Part shown: one piece after another, positions 21,714 to 30,895 of the stretch
Position numbering within the stretch: position 1 is the stretch's first letter
Layout of the letters: each line of letters begins with the position of its first letter
Assembly: GCF_009936045.1 (NCBI RefSeq)
Contig: NZ_QWEQ01000002.1
Location: 62,001 to 126,000 of the forward strand
DNA: 64,000 bases
Reading direction: 5' to 3'
Source of the DNA: Emergencia sp. 1XD21-10
GTDB lineage: Bacteria > Bacillota > Clostridia > Peptostreptococcales > Anaerovoracaceae
Position numbers and translations under genes: made by a program
The notes under the pieces: generated by a model
Told to the model about the DNA's origin: nothing
What the model saw: the letters and a program-made list of their open reading frames with translations, nothing else
The model's database searches: none

Positions 21714-21830
21714 ATCCTCACTCCTTGAAATTCATTGTATCACAGGTCGCCTTTTGTTGGCAAGTTTTGCACGCGCCTTACTCACAGCAGATGCATGAAA
21801 ATTCTAACAAACAAGAGACATAGAGAAACA

Positions 21831-22102
21831 TTGCCAAATTCTTGGTTTTTTATGTTTTTGTCAATAAGTGCTGAGAAAACAAGGGATTTTCTTGTCATTT
21901 CAGGGCACTACTTTGGCAGAATTGACAACTTTCCGTTTTTTTGTCAATTTAGTCAACATTTCAGCCCCAAAACATTGACAAAATTGACAGATTTCCGAAT
22001 TTCGGTCAATCTTGTCAATGTTAATATAAATAATCGACCGTTTCACCCCAAGATGACCATCATTCATTGACAAAAATACACAGATGAGCAAGATTTGTCA
22101 AT
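21831..22102. repeat. Intergenic inverted-pair island D (TTGACAA family)
   Basis: TTGACAA and TTGTCAA half-sites pair at 34-35 bp. The pairs are 21831-21864 (left arm TTGCCAA), 21913-21947 interlocked with 21922-21956, 21975-22009 interlocked with 21984-22018, and 22067-22101. In the interlocked pairs two direct half-sites 9 bp apart face two inverted ones, spanning 44 bp. One forms a 17 bp stem (21972-21988 against 22005-22021, one mismatch). A degenerate copy is at 21871-21903. It fills the gap between the divergent metallo-hydrolase and trkA genes. Confidence 0.83.
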
Positions 22103-27646: not shown

Positions 27647-27680
27647 AAAGGACCGGCAGTGTTGTCGGTCCTTTCTTTTC
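27647..27680 (+). terminator. Terminator of the padR-family gene
   Basis: GGACCG at 27650-27655 pairs with CGGTCC at 27666-27671, extended by AAA/TTT and followed by a T-rich tail. Confidence 0.85.
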
Positions 27681-27719: not shown

Positions 27720-27882
27720 TGTACGTATAATCCACTTTTTTCCTTTAAATATGCACGCGCAATCGCCTATCAGTCCATTTCTTCACCGAAACTCCTCCTA
27801 AATGTGCATATTTTAAGCGTTATTTTAACTTTTACGTACGTTCGTGTACATATATCGAAAGCTTTTTTGATATTTATGCACT
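27720..27882. repeat. Intergenic inverted-pair island E (TGTGCATA family)
   Basis: Three units of exactly 38 bp: 27720-27757 (TGTACGTA...TATGCACG), 27803-27840 (TGTGCATA...TACGTACG) and 27845-27882 (TGTACATA...TATGCACT). Arms are 8 bp and interiors are 22 bp of unrelated, AT-rich sequence. Several arm changes are transitions. The same family forms island F 3 kb away. It lies between the convergent padR and pnp genes. Confidence 0.75.
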
Positions 27883-27911: not shown

Positions 27912-27939
27912 ACAAGCCACCCATTACAGGGTGGCTTGT
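27912..27939. terminator. Hairpin terminator between padR and pnp
   Basis: Perfect 11 bp stem ACAAGCCACCC / GGGTGGCTTGT with a 6 nt loop, 9 bp after the pnp stop codon (pnp is on the minus strand). Both strands have T-rich flanks, so it may work in both directions. Confidence 0.8.
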
Positions 27940-30680: not shown

Positions 30681-30895
30681 TGTGCATAAAATCATCATTT
30701 CTATTCAAAATATGCACATCCTTCTCCTGATCTGTGCATATTTTTTGTAAAATCAACGAGTATATGCATATTCTTGAACTTAAATGACTACACTTCAAGG
30801 TAAAACCCACTTAAATCTACATATTTTGAACAATTTCTTCAATTCTATGCACGTGCTTGTGCATATTTTGTCAAATTTTTTCTAATATATGCATT
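30681..30895. repeat. Intergenic inverted-pair island F (TGTGCATA family, four 38 bp units)
   Basis: Four units, each exactly 38 bp: 30681-30718 (TGTGCATA...TATGCACA), 30733-30770 (TGTGCATA...TATGCATA), 30816-30853 (TCTACATA...TATGCACG) and 30858-30895 (TGTGCATA...TATGCATT). Linkers are 14, 45 and 4 bp. The 22 bp interiors are AT rich but not alike. The island sits between the ribF stop and the rpsO promoter. No gene is visible in this gap. Confidence 0.87.

Follow-up and report, generated by a model that had tools for sequence, protein, structure and literature searches.

Transposase-driven movement of hairpins is a frequent explanation for interspersed repeats in bacteria, and repeats of the REP/BIME type are placed near the 3' sides of genes. 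Elsewhere, in multi-dimer phased operators and in the complexes formed by wrapping proteins, such as Lrp-type octamers and RemA rings, several protein units are arranged along approximately 200 bp of DNA, with the Lrp-type octamers and RemA rings being known from promoters. The resolution sites of small serine recombinases combine several subsites with inverted arms, with AT-rich contacts inside the outer motif. Part of the published account of REP/BIME elements deals with REPs at regular spacing, the binding of proteins and the transposases linked to them (PMC2817692), and part of that of REPINs with populations of short repeats that persist in a genome over long periods (PMC8049555).

The window, meaning the whole 64,000-nucleotide stretch of Emergencia sp. 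1XD21-10 DNA analysed here, contains two islands of paired short arms, E and F. A sequence-only reading of this DNA had described seven units of identical length across the two islands, separated by linkers of 4 to 45 bp. All seven were recovered at the coordinates below, each exactly 38 bp long, with successive linkers of 14, 45 and 4 bp in island F, and 45 and 4 bp in island E. Island E is a weaker, three-unit copy, with unit scores of 23.9-26.4 against 31.4-38.8 for island F. The features are as follows, with strands in island F taken from the central dinucleotide of each unit:

30681 to 30718, minus strand: island F unit 1, 38 bp, with perfect arms TGTGCATA/TATGCACA
30733 to 30770, plus strand: island F unit 2, 38 bp, separated from unit 1 by a 14-bp linker
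30771 to 30815, unstranded: central linker of island F, 45 bp
30816 to 30853, minus strand: island F unit 3, 38 bp, with a degenerate left arm (TCTACATA)
30858 to 30895, minus strand: island F unit 4, 38 bp, separated from unit 3 by a 4-bp linker
27720 to 27757, unstranded: first scored unit of island E, 38 bp, with no fourth unit scored on either side of the island
27803 to 27840, unstranded: island E unit, 38 bp, preceded by a 45-bp linker
27845 to 27882, unstranded: island E unit, 38 bp, preceded by a 4-bp linker

The distance between arms is not broadly spread across the genome. Exact TGTGCATA-N(6-36)-TATGCACA pairs occur at 13 places in the window's own genome (G000; 3.39 Mb in 116 contigs), twelve of them at 38 bp and one at 37 bp, with no places found by the reversed-pattern control. 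When up to three mismatches were permitted, the 38-bp pattern matched 143 places, compared with one for the reversed control. In G008, which represents a second species of the genus, all 14 exact pairs were 38 bp, and the pattern with up to three mismatches was found at 94 places, versus four in the control. Across 61 genomes (the window's own and 60 relatives), exact pairs of any length were present in six, and those of 38 bp were confined to G000 and G008. G004 has five exact pairs, at L043 and other places, four of which are 33-bp hairpin-like units with TGTGCATA arms that may be related to the 38-bp unit. The enrichment of TGTGCATA alone within the window was modest, with six matches against a shuffle mean of 2.07, and 4 of 100 shuffles reaching six; what exceeds chance is the pairing of arms at a fixed distance, rather than TGTGCATA by itself. 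The loci fetched for the 38-bp matches contained 170 arm pairs at 38 bp, along with three island units of other lengths, two being 37 bp and one 39 bp, a constancy that is partly built in when orthologous units are compared, because a 38-bp matrix was used to find them. A scan by named species, from which the window's own record, or records close to it, may be missing, returned 22 stretches: nine were from Emergencia sp. SUG182, and the 13 other records, with one place each, are taken as chance. Scans of viral sequences gave six and two contigs, with one place apiece.

The arrangement of units within islands was similarly constrained. We examined 54 islands, drawn from places among the matches listed: 29 from G000, including E and F, and 25 from G008, obtained from 27 stretches fetched in G000 besides the window, and 25 in G008. 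Hence the number of islands in G000 is at least 29. Exactly four units were scored in 41 of the 54, and these 41 were used for the layout and covariation tests, the 13 with other unit counts being set aside; many of the island counts pool orthologues from the two genomes, and are therefore not independent. The outer linkers are 4 or 14 bp (13 bp once), and the central linkers 44-45, 55-56, 64-66 or 76 bp, with the three linkers summing to 73 bp in 22 of the 41 islands, and to 63 bp in eight. Such lengths place unit centres near whole turns of 10.4 bp, which we call the turn rule. Phase tests were restricted to linkers of at most 90 bp; for the 143 such linkers of this first arm family, the resultant length was 0.985 at 10.2 bp, the best of the periods between 6 and 16 bp. 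Centre-to-centre distances in the 41 four-unit islands deviated from whole turns by a mean of 0.034 turn, and by 0.19 at most, when the period was set to 10.4 bp, the best-fitting of six. When only the 11 distinct layouts were retained (33 linkers), the resultant was 0.964, a value reached by none of 2000 sets in which linkers were jittered by up to 5 bp. By eye, a common hairpin (AAAGCTGC..GCAGCTTT and variants) was seen in the middle of 65-bp-class central linkers at L014, L017, L024, L029 and L038; a look by eye at the 45-bp-class central linkers did not reveal a hairpin of the AAAGCTGC..GCAGCTTT type.

The unit interiors had been taken to be unrelated, which is right only in part, for the T/A tracts beside the arms and an oriented central A-tract are conserved. 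Of 199 units, 190 have AA or TT as their two central bases, and the oriented consensus is approximately TGTGCATATWTT-N-RAAAAAAA-Y-N-YY-N-AAAATATGCACA, in which the central AA is present in 100% of units by construction, as orientation was set by the central dinucleotide. The units also follow a grammar of direction: all seven islands of the 4-65-4 class read >><> in one orientation, as do seven of the eight 4-45-14 islands, with the eighth having one unassigned unit, and directions are mixed in the 4-55-14 class. Intrinsic curvature caused by phased A-tracts was considered, and dropped on spacing alone, since the tracts at positions 9-12 and 27-30 are 18 bp apart, which is not a whole number of turns.

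Comparison of the two species indicates which parts of an island are retained. Flanking genes were common to G000 and G008 at 18 island pairs, one of which (L039/L061) is doubtful; divergence was calculated from the 11 of these pairs with four matching units, and linkers were compared in 12, leaving out pairs in which units were lost, extra or unlike. Over the 11 pairs, core arm positions differed at 4.7%, and all arm positions at 69 of 704; the A/T tracts differed at 37 of 352, and the central tract at 19 of 176. The free interior, by comparison, differed at 162 of 440 positions (36.8%), and linkers were 36-44% diverged (79 of 178 positions in short linkers, and 135 of 375 in central linkers of equal length). 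Linker lengths were nevertheless unchanged in 33 of 37 cases over the 12 pairs, with two differing by 1 bp and two by 11 bp; the gap separating an island from its nearest gene was unchanged in only 3 of 24 cases in the same pairs. In L015/L060, outside the count of 37, a linker is 4 bp in one island and 14 bp in the other, a change of 10 bp. Among the pairs compared, linkers were seen to have changed by about one full turn, but not by half a turn. Units have been lost from some orthologues, for example at L020 and L033, which each have one scored unit, compared with four in G008. The arms and tracts thus appear to have been kept by selection at orthologous places, while the remaining interior has not. 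The proposal that selection acts on the distance between arms is better supported than when it was first made, given a unit length fixed genome-wide, and arms and tracts conserved at orthologous islands.

The 38-bp units are one of three arm families in G000, all of which occur in the window. The other two are represented by the following islands:

2137 to 2437, unstranded: second-family island of five units of 39-40 bp, arms GTTGTGCA/TGCACAAC, with successive linkers of 14, 32, 44 and 14 bp, of which that of 32 bp departs from the turn rule
21830 to 22102, unstranded: third-family island, arms ATTGACA/TGTCAAT, between divergent genes, with units at 21830-21865, 21921-21948, 21974-22019 (nested) and 22066-22102

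Second-family islands, defined by GTTGTGCA, mostly have five units, which across three genomes were 39 bp in 79 of 109 cases and 40 bp in 25 of 109. Their linkers are mainly 14, 24, 34 or 44 bp (resultant 0.934 from 86 linkers), with three linkers of 32-33 bp off the turn rule; among the 86 are two of 3 bp, and none of 4 bp. Site centres are close to whole helical turns apart in the first family, and also, through the steps of its linkers, in the second. The third family, defined by ATTGACA, has 28-bp or 37-38-bp units, nested half-sites at a distance of 9 bp, and linkers clustering at 25, 35, 45-46 and 55 bp. Here the turn rule is weak, with a resultant of approximately 0.6 over 32 linkers, noisy half-sites included, and a distance between some centres of 87 bp (8.4 turns). 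Exact pairs number 35 in G000, 7 in G008 and 49 in G004 for the second family, and 28, 38 and 24, respectively, for the third. A further family of CATGTGC units was found in G005, a sister species, alone of 13 genomes; its units are mostly 37 bp long and mostly 53 bp apart, giving a pitch of 90 bp, or 8.65 turns, hence the turn rule is not followed. The idea that this rule is general to every arm family was consequently dropped, as the G005 family does not follow it, and the third family does so weakly. G005 also has four 40-bp units (TGCGTAACA..TGTTACGCA) separated by linkers of exactly 55 bp (L152:4504-4828), and a 39-bp relative, also with 55-bp linkers, is found at L143. The stepping of linkers by about one helical turn, the polarity of the units and the two further arm families in the genome had all been missed by the sequence-only reading.

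Gene context was established with a codon-usage heuristic for open reading frames, rather than from annotation. The 54 islands lie between convergent genes in 22 cases, tandem genes in 30 and divergent genes in 2, many of these being orthologous pairs. At tandem sites, the gap to the upstream stop codon was smaller than that to the downstream start (medians of 56.5 and 174; n=26, p 0.012), with 45 of the 54 islands entering the tests of gene gaps and of polarity.

We consider it probable, at roughly two chances in three, that the islands are phased binding arrays for putative protein dimers on one helix face, located at gene 3' sides. Firstly, each 38-bp unit would be a double-stranded DNA site for one candidate protein dimer. 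Secondly, judging from the positions of conserved bases about the unit centre, from which the groove assignments derive, the dimer would lie on one helix face, reading TGTGCATA through major-groove contacts some 1.5 turns to each side of the centre, and the tracts through minor-groove contacts at 0 turns and approximately 1 turn from it. Thirdly, because the linkers are 4, 14 or about 45, 55 or 65 bp, four such dimers would occupy one face, and may assemble into a single nucleoprotein particle of approximately 215-236 bp, acting as a bridge, loop or wrap. Fourthly, and speculatively, a particle positioned after stop codons and between convergent genes could serve chromosome architecture or topology, rather than a regulon; any architectural role, perhaps in the topology of DNA or the structure of domains at the ends of genes, is speculation. 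The quantity conserved is geometry, in the form of half-site distance and whole-turn spacing, which is held while most other bases change, so that DNA alone suffices to predict a protein assembly.

The existence of arm families in parallel hints at proteins that are paralogous or have diversified. A broader reading, which we advance tentatively and regard as doubtful, is that several populations of multi-dimer DNA arrays exist in parallel on Emergencia chromosomes, maintained by selection, with a diversified putative protein for each population; together these would be an undescribed chromosome-organising system. Spacing by whole turns would be strict in the four-unit TGTGCATA and five-unit GTTGTGCA islands, and looser in the four-unit ATTGACA islands, with dedicated particles of approximately 215-310 bp at gene 3' sides. 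With several arm families in one genus, the DNA specificity of the putative proteins could be matched by comparison across species.

The alternative that survives best, although we think it unlikely, is that the islands are non-autonomous mobile elements, on which a transposase or recombinase assembles phased dimers in order to move the island; selection on the arms would then be selection for mobility, and insertions would be tolerated at gene 3' sides, in keeping with just two of the 54 placements being between divergent genes. As with MITEs, discrete copies with a common interior and unrelated flanks do occur, in one subfamily of four islands that have all four units in common, with interiors 66-80% identical and flanks that differ. 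Interiors in the 64-66-bp class are up to 68% identical, and the median is 41% when every pair among the 22 four-unit G000 islands is considered. In addition, island F, at the rpsO-ribF site in G000, was absent in the five other species that were aligned, of twelve matched. Hence the islands seem to have spread as wholes, and then remained under selection; part of their regularity is therefore common descent, and the absence of F from the same site in five other species means that selection could be for dispersal, and not for the host alone. Against mobility as the whole explanation, flanking genes are common to the 18 G000/G008 pairs, including the doubtful one, and a merely mobile element would not need arms so much more conserved than interiors (4.7% versus 37% diverged in the 11 pairs). 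Nor was there a signal of the target-site duplication expected of MITEs, the mean direct repeat across 41 islands being 1.39, versus 1.50 when shuffled. No transposase family was matched among 40 scanned neighbouring genes, although a gene for a 281-aa tyrosine recombinase adjoins the island at L021 (L021:1377-2219). In G008, 20-bp tandem repeats around TGTGCACGGGCTTCGGCGTT directly adjoin another island (L057:2188-2368).

A second alternative, which we regard as quite improbable, operates at the level of RNA: arms facing each other across a 4-bp linker (AAAATATGCACA-N4-TGTGCATATTTT) would form a two-way intrinsic terminator, so that islands end transcription from both sides. Their location at gene 3' sides would suit this, as would the hairpins that the arms can form, including a terminator-like hairpin called at 30846-30865 from arms across the 4-bp linker of island F, and the hairpin-like appearance by eye of some central linkers. 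Both single strands of island F also fold better than shuffles (z -4.0 and -4.3), which inverted arms would lead one to expect in any case. Yet covariation was not seen overall in the 41 four-unit islands. Within units, complementary letters in the arms were rarer than in shuffles (total z -5.2), such that the conserved hairpin fold typical of REP/BIME units was not found, and compensatory stem changes across linkers did not emerge in total (z 1.0 for 4-bp, 0.0 for 14-bp and 0.0 for central linkers). Single positions across 4-bp linkers did match above shuffles, namely position 9 (z 2.7), and, in G000 alone, positions 9 and 12 (z 3.0 and 2.6; total 1.9). Folding back of the whole island about TCTGCATA arms at a4/a5 was tried and found unconvincing, the centre having a total z of 0.0 (2.3 at position 2 alone); the other fold-back pairings in the 41 islands gave z of 2.0 for a3-a6, 0.4 for a2-a7 and 0.8 for a1-a8. 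Unit polarity followed transcription at 12 of 22 tandem sites (p 0.83), and this lack of strand preference, together with the low pairing of arms, speaks against an RNA. Furthermore, linkers of whole turns have no RNA rationale, the second family has two 3-bp and no 4-bp linkers, and the genes either side of island E have terminator-like hairpins of their own outside the island (27647-27674 and 27912-27939). A search of both strands of the window with Rfam 15 at the gathering threshold gave no matches. The earlier preference for protein binding over RNA folding, originally a slight one, is accordingly strengthened as a reading of these alignments, with arms probably not selected to pair, their complementarity being below shuffles within units and at about the shuffled level across linkers.

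Less probable still is that the islands are REP/BIME-type repeats dependent on a Y1 (RAYT-like) transposase. The resemblance consists of intergenic placement at gene 3' sides in many copies, with several families per genome in a mosaic arrangement, and of one Y1_Tnp match in each of G000, G008 and G004, the genomes rich in the second and third families; that of G008 (G008:C35:11495-11851, L164) is about 2.3 kb from island L051, on a short contig. But the units are not covarying hairpins, matches to Y1_Tnp (PF01797) are present in 5 of 10 other genomes of the genus without the 38-bp unit, a stop lies within the G000 match, and G005, which possesses an arm family of its own, has no Y1_Tnp match. 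Units on both sides of the gene were seen at none of the six Y1 loci examined: that of G004 (L166) has a single unit resembling the second family, with two mismatches, and that of G008 (L164) has no unit within the examined flank of the gene. The operators of an ordinary regulon are similarly improbable, for although paired half-sites at fixed spacing are typical of dimeric regulators, 22 of the 54 islands lie between convergent genes and 2 between divergent ones, and 36 of the 40 neighbouring genes have Pfam matches with no function in common.

The phased arrays that we propose can therefore be set beside the systems from which we began. Literature searches found no description of such arrays, which is no proof of absence. 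Proteins of the Lrp or RemA families are known from promoters; the islands, by comparison, are present in tens of copies, mainly at gene 3' sides, and have no tie to a protein from either family. The resolution sites of small serine recombinases differ from units of equal length in tens of copies per genome. REPINs are alike in being short repeat populations, whereas in the islands hairpin covariation was not found, and a RAYT link is doubtful. By placement and copy number, the nearest kind is REP/BIME: the islands are likewise extragenic, in high copy and mostly at gene 3' sides, with defined orientations and spacings of units, and species-specific families. Each unit here, by contrast, has two short arms around a free interior, hairpin covariation is absent, and no Y1 gene was flanked by units in the six loci examined; the lack of a conserved hairpin and the observations on Y1, which lean against a cognate transposase, are the reasons for not filing the islands under REP/BIME. 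Hence the islands resemble these known repeats in placement, and differ from them in missing covarying hairpins, and in having a geometry of linkers stepped by about one helical turn.
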